From positions 62,001 to 126,000 of the forward strand of contig NZ_JAMBNZ010000008.1 of assembly GCF_023715365.1 (NCBI RefSeq): a stretch of DNA of 64,000 nt. The letters are read 5' to 3'. The DNA comes from Georgenia satyanarayanai. GTDB taxonomy: Bacteria > Actinomycetota > Actinomycetes > Actinomycetales > Actinomycetaceae. The notes below the pieces were generated by a model that did not search any database, was not told the DNA's origin, and worked only from the letters and a program-made list of their open reading frames with translations. Positions within the stretch are counted from its first letter, which is position 1. The number at the start of each line of letters is the position of its first letter. Both the position numbers and the translations under genes were made by a program. This document shows positions 48,018-64,000 of the stretch, piece after piece.

Positions 48018-49632
48018 GGCGGACCGACTCGACGTCGCTGAGACCCACCGACACCGGCTGCGGCTCCCCGGTGTCGGTGAGCTCGACGTCCTGGACCTCC
48101 TCGCCCTCCGGCGTCGTCATGGTGAGGCGCAGCCCACGAGGCCGTGCCTCCAGGAGCCGCTGCTCCTCCTCCCCGCCGTTGCCGGCGACGACGAGCACGG
48201 TGACGAGGCGCGCCGGTTCGGGAAGGACGAGCTCGACCGACTCCCCGATCCCGTCGCCCTCCGGGGCCCACGAGCGGTCGAGGATCCCGTCGCGCACCTG
48301 GGACGCGGGACGGTCCGCCCGCGCGCTCGAGGCCACCACCTCGGACGGGTTGATGGGCTTGTCGCCCGCCACCCTGTCCACGACGGCGGCGTAGGCACCC
48401 GCGAGGGAGTCGCGGGCGTACCAGGCACCTGTCCCGAGCAGGCCGAGGATGACGATGGTGACGACGAGCCTCGTGGGGAACCGACGACGACGGCGCGCAC
48501 GGGGCCGCGTCCCCGCCGCCGGTCCCTGGCGGGGCTCGGGGCGCAGCAGGCGCCGCCACCACGAGCGCTCCGGCTGGACCGGGGCGTCGGTGAGGTCGGC
48601 GCCGCAGCGGCGGCAGAAGTGCCGGTGCGGTGCGTTGCCCACCCCGCAGGCGCCGCAGACGAGCTCGCCCGGGCGCGGGGGCGGCTCCTCCTCCTCGGCC
48701 CGTGGCACCGGGCGGCGCTGCACGGGCGCGCCGGGCTTGCGCGCCGCGGGCTGGCGAGGGGCCGGCCGGCCCGGTTTGGCGGGGCTGGGCTGCGCGGCGG
48801 CGGGTGCCTCCGCGACGTCGGCCGGCCGCGCCGACGCCCCCTGCTCCCGCGGCTCCGCCGACGGCGGTGCCGCCGCGGCAGCGGCACCCGCCCCCGCGGC
48901 GCCGGAGGGCCCGCCGGCGGCGGCACCGCCTCGTGCCGCCTCGGTGCCCTCGCGCGCGGCGGCAGCCGCCGCCTGGGCGAGCGGACCGCCCCCGGCCGCC
49001 CGGACCGCCTGGTCTGCTGCCGTCCGGCCGGGTGCCCGCGTGGCACCGCGTGCCTCGGACCGGGCGCGGGAGGCGGTGCTGCTCGCCGTCGACAGCGCCC
49101 CGCCCGTGGCCTGGTCGGCGGCCCGGCGCGCCGCCCGCGCCGCCCGTCCGCCGAGCCCACCGAGCGCGCCCGAGCCGGCTGCAGTGACCGTGGGCGGCGC
49201 AGCCGATGCCGCAGCCGGTACGGCGCGCGGTGCGGAGGGGGCGACCGGCTCCTCGCCCGGCGCGGCGTGCGGGGGCCCGGCTGCCGACGCCGGCTCGTCG
49301 GTCGCCGCACGGACGCCGTCGTCGGCTCGCGCGGCCCCGCCCGCGCCGGCGCCGTCCGACCCCGCGGCACCGCCCGCCCTGCCACCGTCGGCTGTCTCTG
49401 CGCGACCTGCCCCGCCGTGGTCGCTCCCCACGGGCGCAGCCCCGCTGCCGCCGTCGCCTCCCGCGGGCGCACCCGCGCCGCCCCCCGCGACCTCAACTGT
49501 GCCGGCAGCGCCGGTCCTTGCGCCGTCGGCGACCGCGACCTGCGTCTCCTCCCACTCGAGGTAGGTGCCGCAGCTGCCGCAGAACAGCTCGCCGTCCTCG
49601 TTGCGGCTTCCGCACTCAGGACATGTCTGCAT
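47938..49632 (-). CDS. Zinc-ribbon, single-span membrane protein with lectin-like C-terminus (CisA-like)
   Basis: A 564-residue protein with four parts: an N-terminal zinc ribbon (CPECG...CGSCG, residues 4-22); about 280 residues of Ala/Gly/Pro-rich disorder; a second zinc ribbon (CGACG...CRRCG near 335-355); and one transmembrane helix (LVVTIVILGLLGTGAWYA, near 405) followed by about 140 residues that look like a galactose-binding, discoidin-type sandwich (residues SSARADRPASQVRDGILDRSWAPEG onward). This layout suggests cytoplasmic docking to the particle and an extracellular sensor. It resembles, from memory, the membrane factor CisA of Streptomyces contractile systems. The start overlaps the gpI-like gene by 17 bases. 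Confidence 0.8.
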   Translation of the reverse strand: MQTCPECGSRNEDGELFCGSCGTYLEWEETQVAVADGARTGAAGTVEVAGGGAGAPAGGDGGSGAAPVGSDHGGAGRAETADGGRAGGAAGSDGAGAGGAARADDGVRAATDEPASAAGPPHAAPGEEPVAPSAPRAVPAAASAAPPTVTAAGSGALGGLGGRAARAARRAADQATGGALSTASSTASRARSEARGATRAPGRTAADQAVRAAGGGPLAQAAAAAAREGTEAARGGAAAGGPSGAAGAGAAAAAAPPSAEPREQGASARPADVAEAPAAAQPSPAKPGRPAPRQPAARKPGAPVQRRPVPRAEEEEPPPRPGELVCGACGVGNAPHRHFCRRCGADLTDAPVQPERSWWRRLLRPEPRQGPAAGTRPRARRRRRFPTRLVVTIVILGLLGTGAWYARDSLAGAYAAVVDRVAGDKPINPSEVVASSARADRPASQVRDGILDRSWAPEGDGIGESVELVLPEPARLVTVLVVAGNGGEEEQRLLEARPRGLRLTMTTPEGEEVQDVELTDTGEPQPVSVGLSDVESVRLTILSVYGEELGAPVALAEVELRGRG

Positions 49633-50173
49633 CGGAGTCCTCCACGACATCGATGGTGTGGGCCACGTGCGCCGGCTTGACGGTGGTGACGACCCGCTCG
49701 AGGCGGGTACGGTCCACGGCCCCCGGTTCGCGCACGTGCACGACCACTCGCAGCAGCGGCTCCGGGGAGCCCGGGAGCGCGGCGCCCGGCTGCGCGGACC
49801 AGCTGCTCGCACCGTTCTCCTCCACCTCGACCCGCCCGCCGACGACGAGCCGCACGGCGTCGACGATGCCCGCGGGGGTCCCACGCACGCGGTGGATGGC
49901 GGCGGCCCCGGCGACGATCTCGCGGCGCCGCTCCACCGACCACGTGTCGTCCACCTCGATCCCCACCCACTCCGCGAGCCAGTCGAGGAAGTCGGGCGGC
50001 GCGAGCTCGGGGTCGACGTAGCAGGCGAGGGTGTCGAGGGTGAGGAAGAGCGGGGCGAACGCCGCGTCAAAGGCCTGGACGAAGCGCTGGAGGAACTCGT
50101 CCTCCTGGTAGACGGCCGGCAGCCGGTGCGCCACGGGCGCGACGCTGGGCAGGCGGGGGACGGTGCCGCGCAC
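49616..50173 (-). CDS. Baseplate protein, phage tail protein I-like
   Basis: A 185-residue protein of the P2 gpI / phage tail protein family: LPAVYQEDEFLQRFVQAFDAAFAPLFLTLDTLACYVDPELAPPDFLDWLAEWVGIEVDDTWS is the family hallmark. RGTPAGIVDAVRLVVGGRVEVEE follows. In contractile systems this subunit completes the baseplate wedge with gpJ and gp25. GTG start one base after the gpJ-like stop. Confidence 0.88.
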   Translation of the reverse strand: MRGTVPRLPSVAPVAHRLPAVYQEDEFLQRFVQAFDAAFAPLFLTLDTLACYVDPELAPPDFLDWLAEWVGIEVDDTWSVERRREIVAGAAAIHRVRGTPAGIVDAVRLVVGGRVEVEENGASSWSAQPGAALPGSPEPLLRVVVHVREPGAVDRTRLERVVTTVKPAHVAHTIDVVEDSDADMS

Positions 50174-50174
50174 G

Positions 50175-52118
50175 TCATCGCCCCCCGACGACGCGCACCT
50201 GGTGCTGGTAGGAGAACACCAGTCCCTGCGGGTCGATGTCGATGCGCTGGACCGGTTCGCCGCGCTTGCCGGTGATCGGGTCCGCGCCGAAGAGCTTGAC
50301 GTCCTCGACGATCTCGGTGCCGCGCAGCGCCTGGAGGACGGCGTAGACCTCCCCGGCGTGGACGGGGCGACCGAAGGGCCAGCCCTCGGCGTCGGGCCCG
50401 CCGGAGACGGGGTCGAAGTAGGTGTTGAGCGCGGTGACGGCCTCGCGCTCGAGCCGCTCGACGTCCGCGCGCGGGCGCGCCGCGAGCCGCGCCACGATGG
50501 TCACGCCCTGGTAGAAGGGCGGCTCGACGAGGAGCCGGGCCCCCACGGGGCGGCGGCGGTCGAGGTGCTCGGTGATCCGGGCGAGGGCCTCCTCGCTGGG
50601 GACGAGGTCCTCGAAGCGCAGCCGGCCGGTGTCGTCGGGCACGGCGGAGGGCACGACGAGCAGCCGGACACCGCCGGACTCCTCCGGCGTCGTCGCCGGC
50701 ACGCAGCGCACCCGCGCCACCGAGGGCTCGGCCCGCAGCGCGAGCTGCTCGTAGTCCTCGGCGGTGATCGCGCGGTCACGGGTGCGCAGGAGCAGCGGGC
50801 CGCGCTGCCTCGCCTCGGCGACCGACTCCCCGGCCACGCCCCCGAGCGCCGGGCGGCGGTTCTCCACGCGGTCGACGAGCGGGATGGGGGTGCGCATGTC
50901 GGTGATCGTCCGCGCGGAGACGTTGCCCCGCGGCCCACCGCCCGTCCGGTAGACCGGCACCCGCAGCGGTGCGCCCTTGGGCGGCACGGCGCCGTAGGAG
51001 CGCAGGGTGCCGTCGGCCTGTCGGACCGCCGGCCCGAAGTGCACCTCGCCGGTGGCCCGGTCGAGGAGGAAGACCTGGTCCTCGGGTCCCGCGGAGGCGA
51101 AGGACTCCACCTCCACCCACTCGTCCCAGCCGCTGCCGGCGGCCACCTGCACGACGACGTCGCCACCGGCGACCACCGGGCTGCGGTCGAGGTGGAACAC
51201 CTGGGCGGGCACCCCCTCGGACAGGCCGAGGATCTCGTCGCGGACCAGCTCGGCGTGGCTTGCGGGGACGGTGCCCCCCATCGTGAAGGCGGAGACCGCG
51301 CCGATCGTCGGTGAGGCGCTGTAGCGCGGGTAGCCCTCGGGCGGGTCGACGACGCGGCAGCGCAGCCAGCCGGCGCGCTTGCCGTCGATGATCGAGGCCC
51401 GGTGGTCGGGCACGTGCAGGACGACGTCACCGGAGCGGTTGAGGCCGCCGGTCCCGTCGGAGTCCACGTCACAGGCCCGCCAGCCGGTCCCGGTCCACGC
51501 CTCCCAGGTGATCGGCGGGAAGCGGGGGTCCACGCCCACGCCGCGGACCTCGCTGTCGAAGCGCAGGACGACGATGCACGACGGCGCCGCGTCGTCCAGG
51601 CCGAGGAGGACGACGTCGTCGTGCGCCGGGGTGTCGGTGAAGACGGCGAAGCGCTCCGCCGCCCGCAGCGCGTCACCGCGGTCGACGACGCCCCCGCCGA
51701 AGCCCTGCGTGAGGACGAGGGACAGCGACCGCGGGGGCACGACGAGGTCGCGGGTGGTGCGGAAGACGACCGGCTCCTCGGTCTCCGTGCGAGGCGTGAC
51801 GGCCTCCGACTGGGCCGGGACGACGACGATCTGGTCCTGGGCGGCGGAGAGCCAGTAGGTGAGCTCCGCGGACGCGGCCGTCGGCGGGTGCAGCGTCATC
51901 CCGAGGAGGTCGAGGAAGGAGACGTAGAGCTTGTCCGGCACCCGGTTGAGCCGGTAGGACAGCTGGTCGACCATGAGCGCGAAGGTCTCCACGAGGGTGA
52001 CGCCGGGGTCGGAGACGTTGTGGTCGCTCCACTCGGGGCAGGTGGCCTGGATGTGGCGCTTGGCGTCGTCGACGAGCTGCTGGAAGCGGCGGTCGTCGAG
52101 GTTCGGGGCGGGGAGCAC
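50175..52118 (-). CDS. Baseplate wedge protein, gpJ/gp6-like
   Basis: A 647-residue baseplate J family protein. The N-terminal block NLDDRRFQQLVDDAKRHIQATCPEWSDHNVSDPGVTLVETFALMVDQLSYRLNRVPDK is typical of the wedge protein of eCIS and T4-like baseplates, and the C-terminal part (AITAEDYEQLALRAEPSVARVRCV, then QRIDIDPQGLVFSYQHQVRVV) also matches. It forms the ring that triggers sheath contraction. GTG start two bases after the gp25 stop, with ribosome site GAGGAGGG. Confidence 0.92.
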   Translation of the reverse strand: MLPAPNLDDRRFQQLVDDAKRHIQATCPEWSDHNVSDPGVTLVETFALMVDQLSYRLNRVPDKLYVSFLDLLGMTLHPPTAASAELTYWLSAAQDQIVVVPAQSEAVTPRTETEEPVVFRTTRDLVVPPRSLSLVLTQGFGGGVVDRGDALRAAERFAVFTDTPAHDDVVLLGLDDAAPSCIVVLRFDSEVRGVGVDPRFPPITWEAWTGTGWRACDVDSDGTGGLNRSGDVVLHVPDHRASIIDGKRAGWLRCRVVDPPEGYPRYSASPTIGAVSAFTMGGTVPASHAELVRDEILGLSEGVPAQVFHLDRSPVVAGGDVVVQVAAGSGWDEWVEVESFASAGPEDQVFLLDRATGEVHFGPAVRQADGTLRSYGAVPPKGAPLRVPVYRTGGGPRGNVSARTITDMRTPIPLVDRVENRRPALGGVAGESVAEARQRGPLLLRTRDRAITAEDYEQLALRAEPSVARVRCVPATTPEESGGVRLLVVPSAVPDDTGRLRFEDLVPSEEALARITEHLDRRRPVGARLLVEPPFYQGVTIVARLAARPRADVERLEREAVTALNTYFDPVSGGPDAEGWPFGRPVHAGEVYAVLQALRGTEIVEDVKLFGADPITGKRGEPVQRIDIDPQGLVFSYQHQVRVVGGR

Positions 52119-52120
52119 GG

Positions 52121-52525
52121 CTAACCCTCCTCGTGCTGGGGGATGACGTAGAACGGGAACACGAGGTTGCGGGGGTCGTTGGTGCCCCGCAGCGTGTAGG
52201 CGATGTCGATGTAGAGCACGCCCTCGTCGATCGCGTCGAAGCGGACGACGACGGCGGCGAGCTCGATCCGCGGTTCCCACCGCTCCAGCGCGACACGGAC
52301 GCTGTAGGCGATGTCGCCCGCGGTGGCGGCGTCGGCCGGCGCGAAGACGTAGTCGTGGACGGAGCAGCCGAACTCGGGGCGCATCGGCCGCTCCCCCGGT
52401 GAGGTCGCGAGGATGAGCCGGATGCTCTCCTCGATCTCGCGCTCGCCGGCGACGAGCGCGATCCGGCCGGTGGCGTCCGTGCGCAGCGGGAAGGCCCACC
52501 CGGTGCCGATGAACTCCTGTCCCAT
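52121..52525 (-). CDS. Baseplate wedge protein, gp25-like
   Basis: A 134-residue gp25/lysozyme-like family protein. GWAFPLRTDATGRIALVAGEREIEESIRLILATSPGERPMRPEFGCSVHDYVFAP carries the conserved EPR-type core (GERPMRPEFG). gp25 nucleates sheath polymerisation on the baseplate in T4, T6SS and eCIS. It is 12 bases downstream of the spike gene and two bases upstream of the gpJ-like gene. Confidence 0.94.
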   Translation of the reverse strand: MGQEFIGTGWAFPLRTDATGRIALVAGEREIEESIRLILATSPGERPMRPEFGCSVHDYVFAPADAATAGDIAYSVRVALERWEPRIELAAVVVRFDAIDEGVLYIDIAYTLRGTNDPRNLVFPFYVIPQHEEG

Positions 52526-52537
52526 GACGAGCCCCCA

Positions 52538-54367
52538 CTAGTTGATCTTCACGAGGGAGCCGCGGACGGTGGTGACGCCGGCGCTGGTGAGCTCGGCGGT
52601 CCCCTTGGCGTCGACCTTGACCGTGGCCCCGGTGAGGGCGGCGCTGGCCTGCGCGTCGGCGCTCAGCTGCGCGGCCATGAGTGCCAGCTTCGCGCTGGCC
52701 TCGATCGTCACGTTCATCGCCTTGAGGGACAGGTCCCCCGTGCTCGTGGTGACGGAGACGTTCTTCTTCCCCGTGACGGTGATGTCCTGCTCGGCGGTGA
52801 CCTCCAGCGGCCCCTGGGAGATGAGGACGACCCCCTTCTGCCCGGTCTGGGTGAGGGTGAGGTGCTGGGCGCCGTTGTTGGTGGAGACCGTGAGGGCGTC
52901 CTGCTGCCCGTCCTCGAGGAACTCCACGACCATGCCGGTCCGGGAGGTGAGGGCGCGCCGCTTGACCGAGCCGTCGCTGTGGACGTGCGCGGCCCAGCCC
53001 GCACCGGCCACGTCCTTGCCGTTGTACAGGCCCCCGAGGACGTAGGGCTCGTCGAAGGAGCCGCCGAAGGCGACGAGGACCTCGTCGTTCACCTCGGGCA
53101 GCCACGACACTCCGCGCTGCGCTCCGGCACCGAGCTGGACGGGCCGCGCCCACCAGCTCTCGTAGCCGTCCGCGAAGGGGAACTTCACCTTGACCCGCCC
53201 GTGGTTGTCCGGGTCCTTGACGTTGGTGACGAGGGCCGTGGTGGCTTTCCACCCGGCGGCCGCGGGCGGCTGGCCGCCGGCGATGACTCCGTAGACGGAG
53301 CGGTCCGAGACGTCCGCGGCGCTGAAGGAGGTCACGTAGCCCTCCCGTTCCGCGAAGTCGTGCCGCACGGTGGTGAGGACGTACTTGCCGCTGAACTCGG
53401 GCCCGACGTCCACGACGTTGACCGCCGTCGCCGCCCGCAGCCGCGGGTTGCCGCGCACGAGCCCCTCGACCTCGGCGAAGCCGCCGGCACGGGCGGCCGC
53501 GCTCACCGTCGCCGCCGTGCGGGCCGCGTCCAGGGTGGCGAGCCCGGACACCGGGAGGAGGTGCTTGGTCCCCTTGAGGTCCCGGGCGAGCGCGACCGGG
53601 GTGGTCTGGAGCACGGCCGCCTGCGTCTCGACCCGTCCCGGGGCGACGACGTCGCGCTTGGCGGTGTAGTCCCAGCCGCGGGCCTCGACCTCGGGCACCT
53701 GGGTGGACGCGGTGACGGTCGCGCGGAAGGAGAGGAGGTTGCGGCCGGCGGAGAGCACCTCCGGCGTCACACGCGGGTCGGTTCCCGACGGCGCGGTGCT
53801 CGCCGTCGTCGGGGTGTCGAAGTGGACCGTCCGTCCCCGGACCCAGACCGCGGCGCCCACCGTCCGGGCGAGCCGGCAGAGGAGCTCCCAGTCCGACTCC
53901 CCGTCCCGGGACAGGTGCTTGTGCTTGGTCGTGAACGGACCGACCTGAGCCTGCAGCCCGGCCTCCCGCAGCACCTTGCCCACGACGTCCGTGACGGACA
54001 TCTCCGTGAAGGCCTCCACCTTGGCGCCGGACTGGAGCCGGCAGCGCACGTCCAGGGCGCGCACGGTGGTGAAGGCGCCGGTCTCGTCGATCTCCTTCTC
54101 CAGCGCGGTGACGTCCCCGTCGAAGAGCGGGACCGGAGCCCCCTGTCCGCTCTGCTGCACCGCGACGGACACGGCGGCGCCGATCTTCGCCCCGATGGTG
54201 CCGAGGATGTCGTGGTGTGCGTCGCTGAAGCGAAGGACGGCCATGCTCGGGACGTGGACGGAGTCGTCGACGTAGGCGGAGGCGAGCATCGCCGTCGCGG
54301 CGGGCGGCAGCGCCGTCCCGTTGACGGACACGACGACCTGGCTGCTGTGCTCCTCACCGAAGGGCAC
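52538..54367 (-). CDS. VgrG-like hub and spike protein
   Basis: A 609-residue protein combining the gp27-like hub (residues 1-370, phage late control D type, SRDGESDWELLCRLARTVGAAVWV), a gp5 OB-fold (NVKDPDNHGRVKVKFPFADGYESWWARPVQLGAGAQRGVSWLPEVNDEVLVAFGGSFDEPYVLGGLYNG is the hallmark region near 380-440) and a C-terminal beta-helix spike made of short repeats (ending near residue 609). It is the central puncturing element and a usual effector attachment point. No lysozyme or effector domain is fused. GTG start overlaps the LysM gene by 14 bases. Confidence 0.94.
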   Translation of the reverse strand: MPFGEEHSSQVVVSVNGTALPPAATAMLASAYVDDSVHVPSMAVLRFSDAHHDILGTIGAKIGAAVSVAVQQSGQGAPVPLFDGDVTALEKEIDETGAFTTVRALDVRCRLQSGAKVEAFTEMSVTDVVGKVLREAGLQAQVGPFTTKHKHLSRDGESDWELLCRLARTVGAAVWVRGRTVHFDTPTTASTAPSGTDPRVTPEVLSAGRNLLSFRATVTASTQVPEVEARGWDYTAKRDVVAPGRVETQAAVLQTTPVALARDLKGTKHLLPVSGLATLDAARTAATVSAAARAGGFAEVEGLVRGNPRLRAATAVNVVDVGPEFSGKYVLTTVRHDFAEREGYVTSFSAADVSDRSVYGVIAGGQPPAAAGWKATTALVTNVKDPDNHGRVKVKFPFADGYESWWARPVQLGAGAQRGVSWLPEVNDEVLVAFGGSFDEPYVLGGLYNGKDVAGAGWAAHVHSDGSVKRRALTSRTGMVVEFLEDGQQDALTVSTNNGAQHLTLTQTGQKGVVLISQGPLEVTAEQDITVTGKKNVSVTTSTGDLSLKAMNVTIEASAKLALMAAQLSADAQASAALTGATVKVDAKGTAELTSAGVTTVRGSLVKIN

Positions 54368-55121
54368 GGGACACCTCCCCGCCCACCGGCGCGAGCTCCT
54401 CGACCGCGGGGAGCATGACGGCGGTGCCCAGGCGGACCCGGAAGGGGTCGTCGATCCCGTTCGCGGCCGCCACTGCCCGCCACAGGTCCGGCCGGCCGTA
54501 CTCGCCGTAGGCGAGTGCGGGCAGCGTGTCCCCCTCGGCCATGACGTGGACGCGGCGCGGGACCAGGCCGCCGGACGTGGGGTTCTGCCCGGACGGGTCC
54601 CCGGACAGCTCCTCGAGCACGACGGAGACGACGGCGCGGATCGGCACCCCGCCGCTGGTGAAGAGGGTGTACTTCGCCGACACGCTGGAGATGTAGGAGA
54701 GGAAGCCGGTGATCCCGCCCCACCGGAAGACCGCCCACGGCGGGGAGTCGCGCTTCTGGTCGTGGGAGCTGGTGGTCGGCACGCAGCAGCCGAGGAGCAG
54801 GTCCACGGCCTTCACCACCGAGTCGTCCTGGGTGTCCGACGCGTCGAGGAACATCTCGAGGTTGAGCTTGGAGGGCTGCGGGCCCTTGTACTGGGGTGGT
54901 CCGCTGCTCCGGTTCCCGGTGCCGGTGGCGCGGGCCCAGGTCGCCGCCTTGGCGATGGTCAGCTCCTTGGGGTTGAACTGGAACTGGACCCGTTGGAGCG
55001 CCGCTCCGGGCTTGGCCAGCGAGCCGTCGCGCGAGGGCTCGTACAGCTGGAGGTAGGCCTTCTCGAACTTGCTGGCGCTGCCGGCCGACGCGGTCGCGGC
55101 TTCCAGCCCGGGGTTGACCAT
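54354..55121 (-). CDS. LysM-containing baseplate hub protein (CIS tube-associated)
   Basis: A 255-residue protein. The N-terminal part (KAYLQLYEPSRDG, RVQFQFNPKELTIAKAATW, KLNLEMFLDA) is the CIS tube-protein/gp53-like family found between tube and spike genes. The C-terminal part (VMAEGDTLPALAYGEYGRPDLWRAVAAANGIDDPFRVRLGTAVMLP, about 195-243) is a LysM domain. In eCIS this links tube to hub and may touch peptidoglycan. ATG at 55121. Confidence 0.92.
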   Translation of the reverse strand: MVNPGLEAATASAGSASKFEKAYLQLYEPSRDGSLAKPGAALQRVQFQFNPKELTIAKAATWARATGTGNRSSGPPQYKGPQPSKLNLEMFLDASDTQDDSVVKAVDLLLGCCVPTTSSHDQKRDSPPWAVFRWGGITGFLSYISSVSAKYTLFTSGGVPIRAVVSVVLEELSGDPSGQNPTSGGLVPRRVHVMAEGDTLPALAYGEYGRPDLWRAVAAANGIDDPFRVRLGTAVMLPAVEELAPVGGEVSRALR

Positions 55122-55131
55122 TGCCGCTGCC

Positions 55132-55578
55132 CTACTTTCCGGAGTCCAGGAATCCGTGGTGGGCGAGCTCGAGCGTCTCGGTGAGGACCTTGCCCTGGTC
55201 CGCGGTGAGCGAGGGGCCGGTCCACCGGACGGGGACGACGCGCTTGAGCTTCCACTCGGCGACGACCGTGCCCGACGCCGTCATCGCCTTGATCGTCCCG
55301 GTCACCTCCTTGTAGCCCCTCGCCACCCCCGCGATCCACGAGGCGATCTTGCTCGTGTCGGCGCCCAGCGGCCGGCTCAGCTTGATGTTCGAGTACTTGA
55401 TCCGGGTGGGCAGCTGCCACACGAAGCGGTTGTTGCCGCCCTCCTCGCGCGTCTCGAGGACGAACTCGCAGCCGAGCCCCTCGCAGCTGCTGAACGCGCC
55501 GAGGTTGGCGTGGTCGATGGTGACGACGTACCGCACCGAGACCGCGGTGTCGGTCTCCGCCAGGACGGTCATGGCCAT
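55132..55578 (-). CDS. Second tail-tube protein (gp19-like, tube initiator)
   Basis: A 148-residue T4 gp19-family tube protein. YVVTIDHANLGAFSSCEGLGCEFVLETREEGGNNRFVWQLPTRIKYSNIKLSRPL is the diagnostic region. It differs from the main tube protein at 60163-60612, and its place beside the LysM hub gene suggests it forms the first tube layer above the baseplate, as Pvc5-like proteins do. ATG at 55578; an ATG six bases later is possible. The start overlaps the preceding gene by ten bases. Confidence 0.9.
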   Translation of the reverse strand: MAMTVLAETDTAVSVRYVVTIDHANLGAFSSCEGLGCEFVLETREEGGNNRFVWQLPTRIKYSNIKLSRPLGADTSKIASWIAGVARGYKEVTGTIKAMTASGTVVAEWKLKRVVPVRWTGPSLTADQGKVLTETLELAHHGFLDSGK

Positions 55579-58500
55579 CTCCGATCTGTCCGCAGCCCCC
55601 GACGTTCGCGGTCGAGGAGGATCTCGTGCCGCATGCGTCGCAGCAGCGGCGGGAACAGCGCGTCGACGAGCCCGGCGAGCTGCGCCGGGTCCGGCACCGC
55701 GGCCGGGCTCGACCCGGCCGGCGCGTCGGCGGGGGCCGCGTCGGTGACGACGACGTCGGTCGTCCCCGTCGGCGCGTCCTCGGACGGCTCCGGCACGACG
55801 GCGGCGGGCGGCGTCTGCACGGCGACGTCGGCCGGCGCCGGGGAACGACGCCGGTGCTCAGCCAGGGGGCGAGGGCGCAGCCCGCGACCGCTCACCTGGC
55901 CGGGGACGAACTCCCCCTGCACGGTCGCGGCGTCCCAGCTGTCCGGGTCGCGGTGGGCCGAGGTGCCGGCGAGGAGCGGCAGGGCGCCGGACGGCACCTT
56001 ACTTCCGGCCCAGACAGACACGGACGAGGTGGCGACGGACCGGGCCACGGCGGGCAGGTCCAGGGACCCGGCCATGGCCGACGTGCCGACAGGCCGTGCC
56101 GCGGCGGGGAGGTCGACGGACCTGGCCACGGGCGAGATGCCGACCGACCGGGCCACGGCGGGCAGGTCCAGCGACCCGGCCATGGCCGACGTGCCGACAG
56201 GCCGTGCCGCGGCGGGGAGGTCGACGGACCTGGCCACGGGCGAGATGCCGACCGACCGGGCCACGGGAGGAAGCTCGGCAGACCCGGCCATGGGCGAGAT
56301 GCCAGCCGACCGCGCCACGGTGGGGAGCTCGACGGACGCGGCGAGCAGGTCACCGGCCCGGACGACGGACGGCATCCCGACGGAGCCCGTCCGTACGTCA
56401 CCGGGCCAGGAGGCGCCCTGCGTCGCCGCGGGACCGACGGGCACGTCGGGGGACCGGTCGTCGGTGGGGGCGCCCGGAGCCCGGGCTGCGCTGGTGGCGG
56501 TCCGACCCGCCGACGGGACGTCGACGGACCGGGCCACGGCCGGCGCACCGGCGGAGACAGCGACCGGCCGCGCACCTCCGGACGTGCTCACGGCGGACGT
56601 CGCCGACCGGGCGACCGAGGCCACGGCACCTGGGCGGGACCGTGCGGACGACGGATCGCCGATGCCGAGCTGGCGGGCGGCGGTCGCAGCCACTCCTCGC
56701 TGCAGGGGACGCAGCCACTCCGCGAGCGTGCCGGTGACGGCGGAGCGCTGTGCCGCGAGCGGGGCCTCCCCCGGCGCCGGGTCGACCGCTCGGGGCGCCA
56801 CGGTGCGCCACGGCAGAGGTGGCGCGGCGGCACCGGCCGCCACGCGGGCGACGACCACCACCGCCCGGCCGATGCCCTCTGCGCCAGGCGCCCCGGCGAG
56901 CGGCAGCTCAGGTCTGACGGCTCCGGCGGGCACGGCCGTGCTCCCCGTCCCACCGGCCGACGCATCGAGCGTCAGGTCCAGCGCCGCAGCAGGTTCTGCC
57001 AGGGTCGGCCCGGATCCCCCGGTGTCCGTTCCGGAGGCGGCACCGACGGACCCGTCGAGTGCGTCGGGAGAGGAACGACCAGCGGCAGGCTCGGCGCTGG
57101 GCTCGGTACCGGCCCGCTGGACCGACCACGCGTCAGGCGAGGCGGAGTCGGCCGCAACTGCGGCGTCCTCGCCGCCCGGGAGCGGGACGCTCGGCCGGGC
57201 GTCGGCGCCATGACCGCCGGGGACCGAGGCAACCGGGAGCTGCGCGTCAGCACGCTGAGCGACCGCCGTCGGGACCGGCGGCCCTGCACGACCCGTCGTC
57301 GTCGATGCCTCGCCGAGCGTTCCCGCCGTTCGGTCCTGCACCCGGGGCAGGCCACCGAGGGCGGGCGAGATCCCGGTGCCTGACGCCTCCGGCGACGACT
57401 CGAGCGCGGGCGTCGGCAGGTCCTCCGCGGAACGCTGGAGGGAGTCGGTCCGGCTCACGCCGCCGCCCGATGCCTGGCCCACGGCGGGCGGACCTGCTGC
57501 CGCCGCACCCGAGACCGGCGGTGGTGCTGCGTCCGGCCCGGCCACGCTCCTGCCGGCGACCGGCATGGCGGCGACGCCGAGTGCGGCGGAGGGCGGGGCG
57601 ATTCTGCTTCCGGGGGGCGGTGCCGCGGGCGGTGTGCTGGCGGAGAGCAACGGCGCGGTGACCGCGGCCTGCGAGCTCGGCACCGAGGGTGGTGCCGCGG
57701 GAGCAGTGTCCCGGCTGACGGAGGACGGCGAGTCGGTCGCGCCCCGAGCCGACGGCGACTGCGAGGCCCCGGTGGCTCGGCTCACGGAGAGCGGCAGTGC
57801 GGCTGCCTGGGCCGGAGCTGATGGTGCCCCGGTGGCTCGGCTGACGGAGAGCGGCGGTGTGGTTGCCTGGCCCGGACCTGATGGCGCGCCCGTGGCAAAG
57901 CTGACGGCCGGTAGTGCAGCGGCCTGGCGCGGGGGCGATGGCGTCCCGGTGCCACGGCTGACGGAGACCGGCAGTGCAGCGGCCCGGCCCGGACCCGAGG
58001 CCGCCCCGGTGGGACGACTGACGGAGACCTGCGGTGCCGCCGCCCGGTCCGGAGCCGATGGCGCCCCGGTGGCGGCGGGGGTCAGCGGTGCGACTGGCTC
58101 GGCCGGAGCCGATGGCGCCCCGGTGGCGGCGGGGGTCAGCGGTGCGACTGGCTCGGCCGGAGCCGATGGCGCCTCGGTGGTGCCGCTGACAGTGGCAGTG
58201 GGTGTGGCTGTCGGACTCGGCAGCGACGGCGGTGTGCCGGGCGCGGTGTCCCCGCTGGGGGTGAGGGGCGCTGCGTCTGCGGGATCGGGCCGGGCGGGCG
58301 CTGTCGTCGCCCCGGCGGGACCGTCGGCACCGGAGCCTCGTGCCGCAGCGGCCACCCGGTTCACGGGGAGCTCTGCGGACCGGCTCACCGTCGGTGACGG
58401 CACCGCTCCCCCGCGTGTCGGCGCCGCAGCGGTGGTCGACGGGAACCGCGGGGAGCTCTCGCCGTTCCCGCCCGCAGGTGCTCGGCCGGCAGCGCTCCCC

Positions 58501-59561
58501 GGAGCACCGATCGTCCCGACGTCGTGGACGGCCGGGCCGTCGTCCGCCCCGGCCTGGGCAGCGGGAGGGTGCGAAGGTCCGGGCAGGGCGACGGCTCCGT
58601 CCGACGGACCTGCCGCCCCGACATCGCTCGAGGCGGCAGTGGGTGGCGCCACGGCACGCTGGACCGGCCGGAGGTGTGGCGCGTCGATGGTGACCCCGGC
58701 ACCGGGCGAGGCGGCACCCGACGCCCCACCGGCCTGCCCGATCGGGGCCGCGGGACCGTCCGGTGAGCCGGCGCGGACGTCGGGCGTGGCTCGGCTCCCC
58801 GGCTCGACCCCACGGGCCGGCTGCCGGACGGGCGATGCGGGGCTGGTGCTGAGCGGGGCGCCCAGACCCAGGCGCCGCGGGACGCTCCGCTGCGCCGTCG
58901 GTCCTGCACCACCCGCGCCGTCACCGGCCACGGTCGGAGCCGTCCCGCCGGTGCTGCGCTGCACCGGCGGCGGGTCGAGAGGCCGACCGGGGCTGAGCGG
59001 GATCTCGACGACCGTGCCGTCGTCGAGCTGCAACGGGTTGGTCCACGCGACCGGCGGCTGCCCGGCCGCGTCGGGTGCCGCGGCCTCCTCCCGCCGCTGG
59101 ACCGGCGTCCTGTCGGCCGCCGGCGGGGGCGGCAGCGGTCCGGGAGACGGTGCGAAGTGCACCACCGGCACACCCGGCGCGGCCGTCGCCCGGGTCAGCG
59201 GGCCACCGGTGGCCCCGCCGGTCGCCACCGTCGACGTCCCGGCAGCCGGAAGCCCTGTGGACGCGGCACGCGCGACGGTCGCCAGCCCACCGCCGTCGCC
59301 GTCGACCACCCCGGACCACGACGCCGCGCTCACCAGGTGCGACATCCGGCCGGTGAAGCCGATGTCGTGGCTTGTCGTGGTCCAGCCCGCCGCGGTGCCC
59401 TGGTGGACGGAGGTCATGGGTGCGATGGTCCGTTGCAGGGGCGCGTGGAACGCCCAGCCGCTCGGGCTCGGGGCCGGCCGCGCAGGGGCGCTTCGCGGCG
59501 TGGCCGCCGGTTCACCGCCGGCGGGCTCCGTCGCCCGCCGCTCCCAGGGCCACCGCATCAC
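55569..59561 (-). CDS. 1330-residue disordered repeat protein of the injection-system operon
   Basis: A very long, Pro/Ala/Ser/Thr/Val-rich protein with almost no predicted order. Two short parts look structured: the N-terminus (MMRWPWERR, then GWAFHAPLQRTIAPMTSVHQGTAAGWTTTSHDIGFTGRMSHLVSAASW at about 35-80) and the last 40 residues (LAGLVDALFPPLLRRMRHEILLDRERRGL), an amphipathic helix. Between them are tandem repeats (18 and 36 residues) and at least ten (V/L/A)QR motifs, also frequent in the DUF4157 protein. It lies between tube genes, overlapping one and abutting the DUF6760-like gene, so it belongs to the apparatus. Scaffold, tether or cargo are all possible; it does not look like a helical tape measure. 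GTG 59561 or ATG 59558. Confidence 0.8.
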   Translation of the reverse strand: MMRWPWERRATEPAGGEPAATPRSAPARPAPSPSGWAFHAPLQRTIAPMTSVHQGTAAGWTTTSHDIGFTGRMSHLVSAASWSGVVDGDGGGLATVARAASTGLPAAGTSTVATGGATGGPLTRATAAPGVPVVHFAPSPGPLPPPPAADRTPVQRREEAAAPDAAGQPPVAWTNPLQLDDGTVVEIPLSPGRPLDPPPVQRSTGGTAPTVAGDGAGGAGPTAQRSVPRRLGLGAPLSTSPASPVRQPARGVEPGSRATPDVRAGSPDGPAAPIGQAGGASGAASPGAGVTIDAPHLRPVQRAVAPPTAASSDVGAAGPSDGAVALPGPSHPPAAQAGADDGPAVHDVGTIGAPGSAAGRAPAGGNGESSPRFPSTTAAAPTRGGAVPSPTVSRSAELPVNRVAAAARGSGADGPAGATTAPARPDPADAAPLTPSGDTAPGTPPSLPSPTATPTATVSGTTEAPSAPAEPVAPLTPAATGAPSAPAEPVAPLTPAATGAPSAPDRAAAPQVSVSRPTGAASGPGRAAALPVSVSRGTGTPSPPRQAAALPAVSFATGAPSGPGQATTPPLSVSRATGAPSAPAQAAALPLSVSRATGASQSPSARGATDSPSSVSRDTAPAAPPSVPSSQAAVTAPLLSASTPPAAPPPGSRIAPPSAALGVAAMPVAGRSVAGPDAAPPPVSGAAAAGPPAVGQASGGGVSRTDSLQRSAEDLPTPALESSPEASGTGISPALGGLPRVQDRTAGTLGEASTTTGRAGPPVPTAVAQRADAQLPVASVPGGHGADARPSVPLPGGEDAAVAADSASPDAWSVQRAGTEPSAEPAAGRSSPDALDGSVGAASGTDTGGSGPTLAEPAAALDLTLDASAGGTGSTAVPAGAVRPELPLAGAPGAEGIGRAVVVVARVAAGAAAPPLPWRTVAPRAVDPAPGEAPLAAQRSAVTGTLAEWLRPLQRGVAATAARQLGIGDPSSARSRPGAVASVARSATSAVSTSGGARPVAVSAGAPAVARSVDVPSAGRTATSAARAPGAPTDDRSPDVPVGPAATQGASWPGDVRTGSVGMPSVVRAGDLLAASVELPTVARSAGISPMAGSAELPPVARSVGISPVARSVDLPAAARPVGTSAMAGSLDLPAVARSVGISPVARSVDLPAAARPVGTSAMAGSLDLPAVARSVATSSVSVWAGSKVPSGALPLLAGTSAHRDPDSWDAATVQGEFVPGQVSGRGLRPRPLAEHRRRSPAPADVAVQTPPAAVVPEPSEDAPTGTTDVVVTDAAPADAPAGSSPAAVPDPAQLAGLVDALFPPLLRRMRHEILLDRERRGLRTDRRWP
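56043..56258 (-). repeat. 108-base tandem repeat, two units
   Basis: Units 56043-56150 and 56151-56258 are nearly identical, with one base change noticed near the start (CAGGGAC versus CAGCGAC), and a partial third follows. Each codes for 36 residues containing LDLPAVARSVGISPVARSVDLPAAARPVG. The near identity shows recent expansion. Confidence 0.85.
58068..58175 (-). repeat. 54-base tandem repeat within the disordered protein
   Basis: Units start at 58068 and 58122 and encode the 18-residue motif ATGAPSAPAEPVAPLTPA. Looser copies of 57-60 bases continue over 57770-58070 (SVSRATGAPSAPAQAAALPL-type), so the whole stretch is a decaying repeat array. Confidence 0.8.
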
Positions 59562-59720
59562 TCACCGCTCCTCGGACAGGCGCGTGTTGATCTGCGCGAT
59601 CTCCCGGACGTACCGGAGCCGCTGGGCGTGCTCGAGGTCGAGGATGTCGTCGAGCGGCCAGTGGAAGTGGTAGGCGACGTACGCGACCTCCTCGTAGATG
59701 CTGTCGGGCGCGTACGTCAC
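59562..59720 (-). CDS. Small DUF6760-like injection-system protein
   Basis: A 52-residue protein, VTYAPDSIYEEVAYVAYHFHW followed by PLDDILDLEHAQRLRYVREIAQIN. This pattern matches the short DUF6760 proteins found in contractile-system clusters between tube and downstream genes. The GTG start overlaps the previous stop by four bases (GTGA) and follows GGGGGAATC. Its exact job is unknown; a tail-assembly chaperone or adaptor role is likely. The next gene begins at the base after its stop. Confidence 0.85.
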   Translation of the reverse strand: MTYAPDSIYEEVAYVAYHFHWPLDDILDLEHAQRLRYVREIAQINTRLSEER

Positions 59721-60163
59721 GATTCCCCCAGGCGGCCACCGGAGAGGTCCAGGGTGAAGCGGTGGGAGCACTCGGGGCAGGTGACCGCGGCGCGGGTGTG
59801 CCCCTCGGCGTTGACGCGGCGGTAGAGGTCCTGGAGGAAGGCGACGTCCGAGGCGAACATGTTCTCCACGACCGTCGCGTCGACCGTGGTGAGCGTGCCG
59901 AGCCGGGTGATGACCCGACCGAGGAGGACGACGGTGGTGTAGGCGGCGTTCTCCTGCACCCGCGCGTCGTACAGGGGCAGCAGCTCGTCGCGTGCCGTGG
60001 CCAGGCGCATGGTGCCGGACCGGTGGAGCGCGCCGTCGGCGTCGAGGTAGCCGCGGGGCAGCTCGAAGTCGAACTCGGTCCGCAGCGTCTCGCGCCCACC
60101 CGGGGCGGCCGTCTCCTCGACGGCCGCCTCGGGCAGGACGAGGCCGGGGGATCCTCGTCGCAT
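59717..60163 (-). CDS. Injection-system assembly protein with C-terminal zinc-knuckle-like motif
   Basis: A 148-residue protein resembling tail-assembly-chaperone-type proteins of eCIS. FELPRGYLDADGALHRSGTMRLATARDELLPLYDARVQENAAYTTVVLLGRVITRLGTLTTVDATVVENMFASDVAFLQDLYRRVN is helical and conserved-looking; CPECSHRF near residue 130 could bind zinc with other residues. It is encoded directly after the tube gene, sharing one base (TGATG). The role is inferred from position. Confidence 0.8.
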   Translation of the reverse strand: MRRGSPGLVLPEAAVEETAAPGGRETLRTEFDFELPRGYLDADGALHRSGTMRLATARDELLPLYDARVQENAAYTTVVLLGRVITRLGTLTTVDATVVENMFASDVAFLQDLYRRVNAEGHTRAAVTCPECSHRFTLDLSGGRLGES

Positions 60164-60612
60164 CAGGCGAACTCCATCTCGTCCCAGCAGATCGTGAACG
60201 TCTCGGTCATGGGCTCGGTGGACCCGGCCTTGAGGGTGCCGCCCACCTCGACGTCCTTGATCCAGCAGTTGCGGTAGTTCAGCGTGCTGACGATCGCGCC
60301 GTCGGAGGACATGATCTTCACCGCTGCCGTCTTGCGGGAGCCGGCCAGGTCGCCCTTCATGATCTGGGCGAGCCAGCTGGTGATGGTCTTGGAGTCGGTG
60401 AGGCCGCGCTTGACCTTGAACTCCCCCGGCTTCTGCCGGCCCATCATCTGGCGGGTGATGAACTTCCCGCTCGAGTCCTGGTGCTGGTAAGCGATCTTGT
60501 CGACCTCCGCCTTCAGGCCGCTGACCTCCATCACGTAGGGCACCTGCACCCCGTCGATCGTCACGCTGAACGAGTACGCCGGGGCGAGGTCCATGGCATC
60601 TGGGAGAGGCAT
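60163..60612 (-). CDS. Main inner tube protein (gp19-like)
   Basis: A 149-residue tail-tube protein. YSFSVTIDGVQVPYVMEVSGLKAEVDKIAYQHQDSSGKFITRQMMGRQKPGEFKVKRGLTDSKTITSWLAQIMKGDLAG is typical of eCIS tube subunits (Pvc1/Afp1, T4 gp19). Hexameric rings of it form the rigid tube driven through the target envelope. The gene starts 34 bases after the sheath stop, the usual sheath-then-tube order. Confidence 0.95.
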   Translation of the reverse strand: MPLPDAMDLAPAYSFSVTIDGVQVPYVMEVSGLKAEVDKIAYQHQDSSGKFITRQMMGRQKPGEFKVKRGLTDSKTITSWLAQIMKGDLAGSRKTAAVKIMSSDGAIVSTLNYRNCWIKDVEVGGTLKAGSTEPMTETFTICWDEMEFA

Positions 60613-60646: not shown

Positions 60647-62194
<1,548 letters not shown>

Positions 62195-62324: not shown

Positions 62325-63074
62325 TCAGCCCGGGTCGGCGCCCGGCACCTCCTCCTCGACCTCGTCACGCTGGACGAAGGCGCCCTGCAGCTCCTCCTCG
62401 TCCTCCTGCCGCTGGACGAAGGCGCCCTGCAGCTCCTCCTCGTCCTCCTGCCGCTGGACGAAGGCGCCCTGCAGCTCCTCCTCGTCCTCCTGCCGCTGGA
62501 CCGGCGCTGGCGCCGGTCCAGCCATGACGGCCTCGGCCGTGGACGCCGCCTCGCGCTCGAAACGGTCGCCGGGGTCGGAGACCCGCACGCCCGTGCCGGT
62601 GTCGCTCCCGTCGACCGGCCCGCTCCGCTGCTGGACGACGTGGGTGAGCTCGTGGGCGAGCATGGTGCGTCCCGCCGTCGAGGACGGGTCGTAGCGCTGG
62701 AAGACGACGTCGGAACCCACCGTGTAGGCGTGGGCGCCGACGGCGCGGGCCGAGTCGCTCGCGGCGCCGCCGCTGTGGACGCGCACGTCCGTGAAGTCGG
62801 CGCCCAGGCGGGCCTCCATGTCCGTCTGCACGTCGGGCTCCAGCGCCTGCCCGCCGCCGGAGCCCACGACGTCGAGGACCGGGGACCGCTCCTGGAGCAC
62901 CTCCCCGGTGGCCTCGTTCCCCACCAGCCGCTGCAGCCCGAGCAGGCCCTCGGCCCCGAGGACGTCCGGGCGGTGCGCGGCCGCGGCGCGCAGCAGGTGG
63001 GGCTCCGGTGCAGCCGGCCGGGAGGTCCGCGTCGATCGTTCCCCGGCCGGGGCCCGCTGGTCGTGCTCGCGCAT
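62325..63074 (-). CDS. DUF4157 (eCIS core) protein with acidic C-terminal repeats
   Basis: A 249-residue protein. Residues 75-150 form a DUF4157 metalloprotease-like domain with DVRVHSGGAASDSARAVGAHAYTVGSDVVF and the zincin motif HELTH (141-145) in MLAHELTHVVQQR. After a short linker the tail consists of three perfect copies of QRQEDEEELQGAFV and a fourth partial one. DUF4157 proteins are diagnostic companions of eCIS and are often N-terminal to toxins; here no toxin domain is attached. The ATG at 63074 follows GAGGGG; a GTG six bases upstream is possible. Confidence 0.9.
   Translation of the reverse strand: MREHDQRAPAGERSTRTSRPAAPEPHLLRAAAAHRPDVLGAEGLLGLQRLVGNEATGEVLQERSPVLDVVGSGGGQALEPDVQTDMEARLGADFTDVRVHSGGAASDSARAVGAHAYTVGSDVVFQRYDPSSTAGRTMLAHELTHVVQQRSGPVDGSDTGTGVRVSDPGDRFEREAASTAEAVMAGPAPAPVQRQEDEEELQGAFVQRQEDEEELQGAFVQRQEDEEELQGAFVQRDEVEEEVPGADPG
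62369..62494 (-). repeat. 42-base tandem repeat, three perfect copies
   Basis: Units 62369-62410, 62411-62452 and 62453-62494 are identical and each codes for 14 residues (QRQEDEEELQGAFV, permuted). Identity at synonymous positions indicates recent duplication or conversion and a copy number that may vary between strains. Confidence 0.9.
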
Positions 63075-63182: not shown

Positions 63183-64000
63183 TCACCGCACGAGGGGCCA
63201 GTACCCGCCGAACTCGCTGGGCACGGTGAGCCGGCCGAGCTTGCGGTACTCGCGCTGCACGGCGGTCACGACGTGGGCCATCGTCACCGTGCCGCCGTCG
63301 TCGGCCGCGAAGTACGCCGCGGTGACGGCGGCGGACCGGATCGCGCCCCCGGCCAGCTCGAAGGCGCCGGCGCAGAAGCCCAGGTCCAGCTCCGCCGCCC
63401 GGGGCAGCGTGGTGCCGAGGCAGCGGTCCCACAGCCGCTGCCGCTGGGCGACGTCGGGCACGGGGAAGTCGACGACGACGTCGAGCCGGCGGGTGAAGGC
63501 GTCGTCGATGTTGGCGCGCAGGTTGGTGGCGAGGACGGCGAGGCCGTCGAAGCTCTCGAGGCGCTGGAGGAGGTAGGCGCTCTCGATGTTGGCGTAGCGG
63601 TCGTGCGCGTCCTTGACCTCCGAGCGTTTGCCGAAGACGGCGTCGGCCTCGTCGAAGAGGAGGACGGCGTTGACGCCCTGCGCGGCGGCGAAGATCCGCT
63701 CGAGGTTCTTCTCCGTCTCCCCCACGTACTTGTCGACGACGGTGGCCAGGTCGACGACGTACAGGTCCAGCCCCAGGTCCTGGGCGACGACCTCCGCCGA
63801 CATCGTCTTGCCCGTGCCGGAGTCACCCGCGAAGAGGGCGACGACGCCGCGCCCGCGGGCGCCGCCGGGTCGCATCCGCCACTCGCCGAGGACCTGCTCG
63901 CGGTGCCGCGCGCGCAGCGCGATCTCCTGCAGGCCGGTGAGCGCGGGTTCGGGCAGCACGAGGTCGGCCCAGCCCACCGCGGGCCGCACCCGGCGGGCCA
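63183..64000 (-). CDS. AAA+ ATPase of the injection system (5' end outside window)
   Basis: The reading frame is open to the window edge; about 272 residues are visible. It is a classical AAA+ domain: Walker A FAGDSGTGKTMSAEVVA, Walker B VLLFDEADAVFGKRSEVKDAHDRYAN, sensor 1 LATNLRANIDDAFTRRLD with the arginine fingers, and a C-terminal helical lid. eCIS clusters contain one such ATPase (Pvc15/Afp15-like), thought to help assemble the particle or load cargo. A GTG at 63989 exists, but the protein clearly continues upstream. It is 108 bases before the DUF4157 gene on the same strand. Confidence 0.93.
   Translation of the reverse strand, partial: ARRVRPAVGWADLVLPEPALTGLQEIALRARHREQVLGEWRMRPGGARGRGVVALFAGDSGTGKTMSAEVVAQDLGLDLYVVDLATVVDKYVGETEKNLERIFAAAQGVNAVLLFDEADAVFGKRSEVKDAHDRYANIESAYLLQRLESFDGLAVLATNLRANIDDAFTRRLDVVVDFPVPDVAQRQRLWDRCLGTTLPRAAELDLGFCAGAFELAGGAIRSAAVTAAYFAADDGGTVTMAHVVTAVQREYRKLGRLTVPSEFGGYWPLVR

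Follow-up and report, generated by a model that had tools for sequence, protein, structure and literature searches.

The window analysed here, a stretch of 64,000 nucleotides from Georgenia satyanarayanai (contig NZ_JAMBNZ010000008.1), carries a Georgenia locus that, judged from its gene content, encodes an extracellular contractile injection system (eCIS). Sheath, two tube proteins, hub, spike, gp25, baseplate J protein, AAA+ ATPase and a DUF4157 protein lie together in one cluster, which places it in the class of eCIS with DUF6760. Within this cluster we found a conserved, disordered protein at the position of a tape measure, in an eCIS thought to have none. The gene order tube, chaperone, DUF6760, giant gene, tube initiator, hub, spike is found in the window and in actinobacterial loci, and the giant open reading frame (ORF) is the largest among the tail genes of the operon. 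In phage tails, the tape-measure gene comes after the chaperone genes and before the hub genes. The giant gene thus occupies the tape-measure slot, and we refer to it as the slot gene. This position, together with the conservation of the gene there, is the most informative point of our analysis and goes beyond the first-pass annotation of the sequence. In full-text searches of open-access papers, none of those listed describes, in the accessible passages, this protein or the VQR motif that it shares with DUF4157. We put at roughly 0.5 the probability that the slot protein is a structural or scaffold component of the eCIS and its best tape-measure candidate, which would be anchored in the spike, threaded through the lumen, disordered and linked to DUF4157.

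The slot protein and its repeats

The slot gene lies on the minus strand (55569-59561) and encodes 1330 amino acids (aa) from a GTG at 59561, as annotated in the first pass, or 1329 aa from the ATG at 59558, which is preceded by GAGGAG. The gene is closely coupled to both neighbours: the stop codon of the DUF6760 gene is located directly before the GTG/ATG, and the start of the tube initiator gene overlaps the slot gene's own stop. The opposite (plus) strand of 55569-59561 contains internal stops. The protein had been described as rich in Pro, Ala, Ser, Thr and Val; this is correct for all five residues, but Gly has to be added to the list (A 21%, P 15%, G 11.5%, S 10%, V 8.5%, T 7.4%, R 7.0%, K 0.1%). 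There is no Cys and no Tyr, and the net charge is 0. Disorder was judged by composition and by a residue-propensity scale.

The reported 54- and 108-base repeats were recovered as well. Tandem repeats of 18 and 36 aa (54/108 base pairs, bp) with VARS motifs are encoded at 56019-56342 (minus strand), where a 108-bp unit is present in 3 copies with 89% matches. A further zone at 57766-58180 (minus strand) encodes repeats of 18-20 aa (54/60 bp) with VSR motifs and consists of two arrays, one of 60 bp (57766-58073) and one of 54 bp (58049-58180, 98% matches). Compared to two Georgenia relatives (synonymous divergence, dS, 0.22 and 0.70), the ratio of nonsynonymous to synonymous divergence (dN/dS) of the slot gene is 0.63 and 0.62, so that the ORF appears to be under moderate protein-level constraint. 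We dropped the idea that the repeats are a DNA-level artefact, since this coding constraint argues against it. In the alignment with the Georgenia relatives the ends of the protein are nearly invariant, while the middle varies by insertions and deletions (indels).

The conserved C-terminal end, which serves as the family anchor, lies at 55602-55688 (minus strand) in ...AGLVDALFPPLLRRMRHEILLDRERRGLRTDRRW, as delimited by a C-terminal profile and AlphaFold2. In the AlphaFold2 prediction of the last 80 residues, a helix spans residues 42-70, in line with the C-terminal helix noted earlier; the block means of the predicted local distance difference test (pLDDT) are 94, 98 and 94.

Conservation of the slot gene

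We collected 136 loci or regions around the slot. These comprise the window, 35 regions from genomes of relatives and from class searches (tube initiator in 12 of 99 and in 34 of 394 genomes), 80 named loci, which are the best 80 of at least 515 confirmed relatives, and 20 Streptomyces regions chosen by hand, mostly top-ranked, among the 198 of 392 genomes with a match. The chaperone and the tube initiator served as anchors; 19 of the 136 were left out because one of the two anchor genes was missing or the fetched piece ended before the anchor. All 117 loci that have both anchors contain DUF6760. We built a profile of the 45 C-terminal residues from 29 seed loci; it matches a slot ORF in 116 of these 117 loci, and in 87 of 88 when only loci outside the seed are counted. 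At the single miss (L068), the slot is 1.5 kb long, with one frame open that is P/A-rich and contains one AVQR. Over the 45 residues, 110 of the 116 C-termini are distinct; L043 and L077 are the same in sequence and were counted twice.

Five of the 116 slot ORFs are interrupted by an upstream stop (L071, L112, L122, L194 and L200), which leaves 111 that are uninterrupted from DUF6760. Two of these (L056 and L189) are probably partly misread frames, with low QR or odd composition, and were retained. In the case of L189, the slot ORF is open, but its odd composition and the few hydrophobic-QR motifs compared to near relatives suggest a frameshift, either in the assembly or real. Comparison of length among relatives, as proposed in the first-pass annotation, gave 537-1395 aa with a median of 953 aa over the 111 ORFs.

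QR motifs shared by the slot protein and DUF4157

The window slot protein contains exactly ten QR dipeptides, every one as (V/L/A)QR, compared to 0.76 expected by composition. A motif search places them within 56697-59438 (minus strand), with starts at residues 41, 153, 199, 222, 299, 707, 767, 813, 936 and 952 counted from the ATG at 59558. When the sequence was shuffled in 60-aa blocks, the mean was 0.81 and the maximum 6 in 5000 shuffles; the ten sites are about twelve-fold above chance. None of them lies inside the tandem-repeat zones. The protein also has 10 [VIL]AR, with 2.9 expected. QR sites are kept in 9 of 10 cases in L042 and in 8 of 10 in L043, against a background of 60 of 83 (L042) and 38 of 71 (L043) for other Arg residues and 308 of 1068 for dipeptides (L043). 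At the more distant L044, 1 of 10 sites aligns.

The same motif stands out across the family. Over the 111 slot proteins we counted 1190 hydrophobic-QR motifs versus 80.5 expected, and VQR, enriched 46.6-fold, is the top tripeptide among those with at least 60 occurrences. At least four motifs are present in 102 of the 111 proteins, and none in L076 and L096. Plotted against protein length, their number gives r=0.42. The spacing is broad, and a periodic arrangement was rejected, as no single period was found.

The small DUF4157 (eCIS core) protein of the window (62325-63074, minus strand; HELTH motif; Pfam PF13699, E=1.5e-30) ends in four acidic repeats, encoded in an array at 62337-62501. Each is headed by a VQR, in line with the motif noted in the first-pass annotation at the borders of these repeats; three of the repeats read VQRQEDEEELQGAF and the fourth is diverged. 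VQR in acidic tails is also seen in the small DUF4157 proteins of the family. We compiled 68 pairs of a slot protein and a stand-alone DUF4157 ORF, including the interrupted L071. The DUF4157 tail contains QR in 62 of 63 pairs whose slot protein has at least three QR (the exception is L193) and in 0 of 5 pairs with fewer. Fisher's test gives p 6e-7, a value that overstates the association: a single bacterial family accounts for four of the five QR-poor pairs, the remaining one (L142) involves an additional DUF4157 ORF next to a fused slot protein, and the threshold was picked after inspection of the data. At L096 (Kribbella), hydrophobic QR is missing from the slot protein, and the only DUF4157 match of the genome, which lies outside the 20-kb locus, lacks QR altogether; this looks like a second event of QR loss. 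As a check, we looked at eight DUF4157 loci in five genomes whose slot proteins are of the QR-bearing kind; seven of these loci could be parsed, and QR was present in all seven.

At L071, L074, L075 and L076 the motif in the DUF4157 tail is VAR, and the slot proteins are enriched in VAR (19 versus 4.4 expected). Over 11 QR-poor slot proteins, 31 VAR were observed with 9.7 expected. A clean switch from VQR to VAR is weakened by the observation that VAR is enriched in QR-bearing slot proteins as well; because 12 of 105 of these are so enriched, a replacement of QR by VAR is no more than suggestive. An LQRxxGN element upstream of the DUF4157 core is also degraded in the clade with VAR tails (e.g. 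SMVGN, VRVGN).

Fusions with DUF4157 and occurrence in other lineages

DUF4157 is found within a slot-type ORF at seven loci (L142, L149, L156, L222, L228, L234 and L236), in the second half of the protein in each case. Four of them (L142, L149, L156 and L228) match the C-terminal profile, with L149 and L156 being near relatives, whereas L222 (Deinococcus, E 0.11), L234 and L236 have no significant match. On the Deinococcus aquaticus plasmid (L222:14545-20541), a frame of 1999 aa is open, with DUF4157 near its end; the annotation covers the last 591 aa only, and about 4.2 kb of coding sequence seems to have been overlooked.

A sample of the whole phylum yielded DUF6760 in 19 of 296 genomes, from which 13 further regions were fetched. 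In five of these (L226-L230), the profile significantly matches a slot ORF (E 6e-7 or better), which measures 703-1127 aa from stop to stop; the sequences of L225 and L235 stop short of the slot. In the remaining six regions, DUF6760 adjoins the tube initiator; three of them (L234, L236 and L237) encode a long protein 3' of the tube initiator, with a C-terminus that is family-like by eye alone. Using the chaperone as a query led to plasmid records from other phyla. Between the tube initiator and the hub, i.e. in the position of the plug Cis6, Nostoc, Paenibacillus and Paraburkholderia encode a long protein with a similar C-terminus. We treat these cases as leads, since the profile is not significant there (E 9.5 for Paenibacillus, above 10 for Nostoc and Paraburkholderia). 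The annotation of a Haloferax cluster has no slot-type gene at the slot.

The joint presence and loss of QR in the two proteins and the fusions point to a shared partner of, or a direct contact between, the slot protein and DUF4157; the data do not say which. A common partner had been suggested in the first-pass annotation from shared motifs, and the roughly 47-fold enrichment of VQR over the 111 slot proteins, the joint presence or loss of QR, albeit in few independent events, and the seven fusions support this suggestion.

A candidate tape measure and its alternatives

From position, conservation, helix prediction, motif enrichment, joint QR presence or loss and fusions, all of which can be read from the sequences, we infer a docking site, a location in the lumen, a ruler function and an identity of the VQR partner along the following lines. 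The slot protein would be produced in the operon immediately after the tail-assembly chaperone and DUF6760; these two probably maintain it in a soluble, extended state. The conserved C-terminal helix may dock in the complex of spike and tube initiator, as does the Cis6/Alg6 plug, and the long disordered arm would run up the tube lumen with the tube rings polymerising around it. The length of the arm, evolving through in-frame tandem repeats, would then set the length of the tube. The VQR motifs along the arm may be docking sites for a partner of the VQR repeats of DUF4157, or for DUF4157 itself, and this docking would tie cargo adaptors to the scaffold.

The proposal resembles known systems in part. 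Like the genes of phage tape measures and Afp14, the slot gene is the largest tail ORF and comes after tube and chaperone and before hub and baseplate, and its length evolves via in-frame repeats. The slot protein differs in that it has no sequence similarity to them, has a disordered arm rich in Pro and Ala where tape measures have helices, coiled coils or membrane segments, and has a ruler activity that is putative; neither homology to a phage-type tape measure nor such an architecture was detected with Pfam, PHROGs and composition. The gene for Afp14 sits elsewhere in the antifeeding prophage cluster. Cis6/Alg6, a small protein with a C-terminal helix, forms a trimeric plug of the spike, and in Anabaena it extends a flexible loop into the lumen (PMC8894135, PMC8894136). 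A short C-terminal helix is likewise predicted for the slot protein, which differs by an N-terminal extension of hundreds of residues and by the lack of detectable similarity to solved plugs. In the window and in Actinomycetes, its gene stands before, not after, the tube initiator and thus not between the tube initiator and the LysM hub. The latter arrangement is present at L217, L220, L221, L234 and L237, and a long protein holds the Cis6 position in Nostoc, Paenibacillus, Paraburkholderia and two Actinomycetota loci (L234 and L237).

The particle of S. coelicolor is uniform, with 60 tube layers and a length of 233-268 nm, yet according to its authors there is no tape-measure gene (PMC12237407; also PMC10066040). 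Its assembly is normal in the Sco4256-4258 deletion (PMC10066040), and particles (SLPs) of S. lividans without Sle1/2 have no apparent structural defects (PMC13277306). This leaves room for a length-setting protein. A haloarchaeal contractile injection system (CIS) reported without cis6 (plug) and cis14 (tape measure) has heterogeneous sheath lengths (PMC11566945). By counting from sco4245 (gp25) and sco4253 (sheath), the slot gene of S. coelicolor would be sco4249; a mention of SCO4249 in PMC13033682 is written for PhoP and is unrelated to the slot gene. Two genomes (G708 and G680) encode tube initiators identical to the solved S. coelicolor chain 9gtp_a over 137 residues, and their slot proteins have lengths of 1378 and 1357 aa and contain 24 and 22 hydrophobic-QR motifs, respectively. 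The ratio of 1378 aa (L187) to 60 tube layers amounts to 23 aa per layer; for a length of 233 nm, this corresponds to about 1.7 Å per residue. As a single point, this is arithmetic and no proof.

Several observations weigh against a spike-anchored ruler in the lumen. The cryo-electron microscopy (cryo-EM) model of the S. coelicolor particle contains nine cluster proteins, and the accessible text mentions no plug or tape measure (PMC12237407). By mass spectrometry, sco4242, sco4256 and sco4251 were detected as proteins of unknown function, with sco4249 unnamed in the passages available (PMC10020575). Furthermore, the lumen is mostly filled in about 97% of wild-type particles, whereas about 85% of particles without Sco4256-4258 look mostly empty (PMC10066040), so that the visible luminal density is mainly effector. 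Disordered chains present in only a few copies among the 783 of the particle might go unnoticed in both cryo-EM and proteomics, but for now this is an excuse. Only a single point calibrates slot length against tube length. The slot protein is predicted to be disordered, unlike typical tape measures, which are helical. The whole slot protein has no Pfam family at E<=1, and its matches to Csy3 in the PDB are chance only. The C-terminus gave stray matches of one or two members only in Pfam, PHROGs and NCBIfam; three queries against the PDB at E<=10 returned no CIS plug chain, although short diverged helices may escape such a search. L231-L233 encode a short protein without a recognisable C-terminal motif between tube initiator and hub. 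As to the link with DUF4157, the QR-poor pairs represent few independent events, since all but one of the five belong to a single family, the cut-off of at least three QR was set post hoc, and VAR exceeds expectation in the 105 QR-bearing slot proteins as well (197 versus 105 expected; at least two-fold in 12).

The most serious alternative, which we consider possible yet doubtful, is a cargo scaffold without ruler function, whose QR motifs gather DUF4157 adaptors and effectors at the spike while a cap or the energetics of sheath and tube set the length. Such a scaffold would be in keeping with the joint QR presence or loss, the fusions and the wide range of lengths among lineages (537-1395 aa). 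It would also agree with work on S. lividans, in which the DUF4157 protein Sle2 binds the N-terminal region of the effector Sle1 and shows a potential interaction with the tube initiator (PMC13277306). Sle2 resembles the small DUF4157 protein of the window in size and in the location of its gene near the sheath, whereas Sle1 is a coiled-coil effector encoded upstream of the sheath and the slot protein is a separate gene product. What argues for the ruler is that the position after the chaperone genes is that of a tape measure and that the particle is uniform in length with no other ruler gene found by its authors, as far as the accessible text goes (PMC12237407).

We consider it unlikely that the slot protein is an injected effector related to the Tme tape-measure-related effectors. 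Tme of S. davawensis (BN159_7576) has 2247 aa, is about 70% disordered, carries an N-terminal DUF4157, tape-measure homology and a C-terminal nuclease, is encoded just upstream of the baseplate genes and co-purifies with spike and tube initiator (PMC11126660). The slot protein shares the large size, the mostly disordered character and the same kind of operon position, a large ORF just upstream of the baseplate genes. However, in the window DUF4157 is a separate gene, the slot protein lacks the tape-measure homology and the nuclease and, according to Pfam, any N-terminal DUF4157, C-terminal effector domain or other domain, and its conserved end is a short helix and not a variable toxin domain. 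A low-complexity filler of little function that drifts under weak constraint would explain the fast evolution of the body (dN/dS ~0.6), the indels and the recent repeats, but it hardly accounts for an ORF with a conserved C-terminus in 116 of 117 loci or for QR sites kept above background, and we give it only a slight chance. Least probable to us is the cleavage of a polyprotein or substrate at QR by the zincin-like DUF4157 domain, as contemplated in the first-pass annotation. QR in both proteins and HExxH in DUF4157 would fit, whereas the clade with VAR instead of QR still has HExxH, and the inhibition of bacterial growth by one DUF4157 cargo, cited in PMC11297309, is independent of its metalloprotease motifs.

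Neighbouring genes of the operon

All genes described in this section are on the minus strand unless stated otherwise. Upstream of the slot gene, the operon encodes an AAA+ ATPase (63183-63989; PF00004), which may run past the window edge, the contractile sheath (60647-62170; Phage_sheath_1 and Phage_sheath_1C) and an inner tube protein of the gp19 fold (60163-60594; PF06841, E=8.7e-24). The next gene, g49 (59717-60163), encodes a homologue of tail assembly chaperones with a zinc-ribbon-like tail. All 13 aligned members match phrog_508, "tail assembly chaperone", with E 0.0023 for the protein of the window and 1.9e-6 at best. Matches in Pfam are weak (Phage_TAC_7 in 1 of 13 members, E 0.11), and a Foldseek search of the AlphaFold2 model (mean pLDDT 74.7) against the PDB gave no match at E<=0.001; YqbN at rank 7 (E 1.5, TM 0.33) is uninformative, and we read nothing into it. 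The DUF6760 protein (59562-59720; E=1.4e-13) weakly resembles phage P2 GpE (Phage_P2_GpE, E=0.084 in the window; 4 of 15 members, best E 0.072).

Downstream follow the tube initiator of the gp19 fold (55132-55578; PF06841; E=2.2e-42 to the S. coelicolor chain 9gtp_a), the hub or LysM-type tube protein (CIS_tube, Cis7-like; 54354-55121; PF19266), a VgrG/Pvc8-like spike (52538-54367; Phage_base_V and Phage_GPD), the gp25-like sheath initiator (Cis9; 52121-52525; PF04965), the Cis11-like baseplate J protein (50175-52118; PF04865) and a Cis12-like Tail_P2_I protein (49616-50173; PF09684). A CisA-like protein (47938-49632), named from position and architecture, has two zinc ribbons and a weak F5/8-type C-terminal domain according to Pfam and one membrane-like segment as judged by eye. 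It contains a VQR of its own followed by an acidic stretch (APVQRRPVPRAEEEEPPP; 48710-48730), which recalls the repeats of the DUF4157 tail. Convergent to it, a BTAD-type transcriptional regulator with an AAA-like domain is encoded on the plus strand (44853-48017), its 3' end overlapping the end of the CisA-like gene by 80 bp.

Implications for actinobacterial injection systems

Our results provide a concrete candidate ruler in 116 of 117 intact intervals, for particles that have been described as lacking a tape-measure gene. If the calibration of ~23 aa per layer holds, slot proteins of 539 and 621 aa, which are among the shortest of the family, would correspond to about 23-27 tube layers. 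As a tentative broader picture, actinobacterial eCIS may use a disordered, motif-studded ruler, probably trimeric, which sits in the spike by a plug-like helix and docks DUF4157 adaptors via V-x-R, mostly VQR. In other lineages the scaffold and DUF4157 appear as one fused protein, so that ruler, plug and cargo adaptor could conceivably form one modular family across bacterial phyla. The widespread and so far unexplained DUF4157 "eCIS core" would thereby be tied to the particle scaffold by a short motif in common and by fusions, a connection that matters for the understanding and the re-use of these injection machines.

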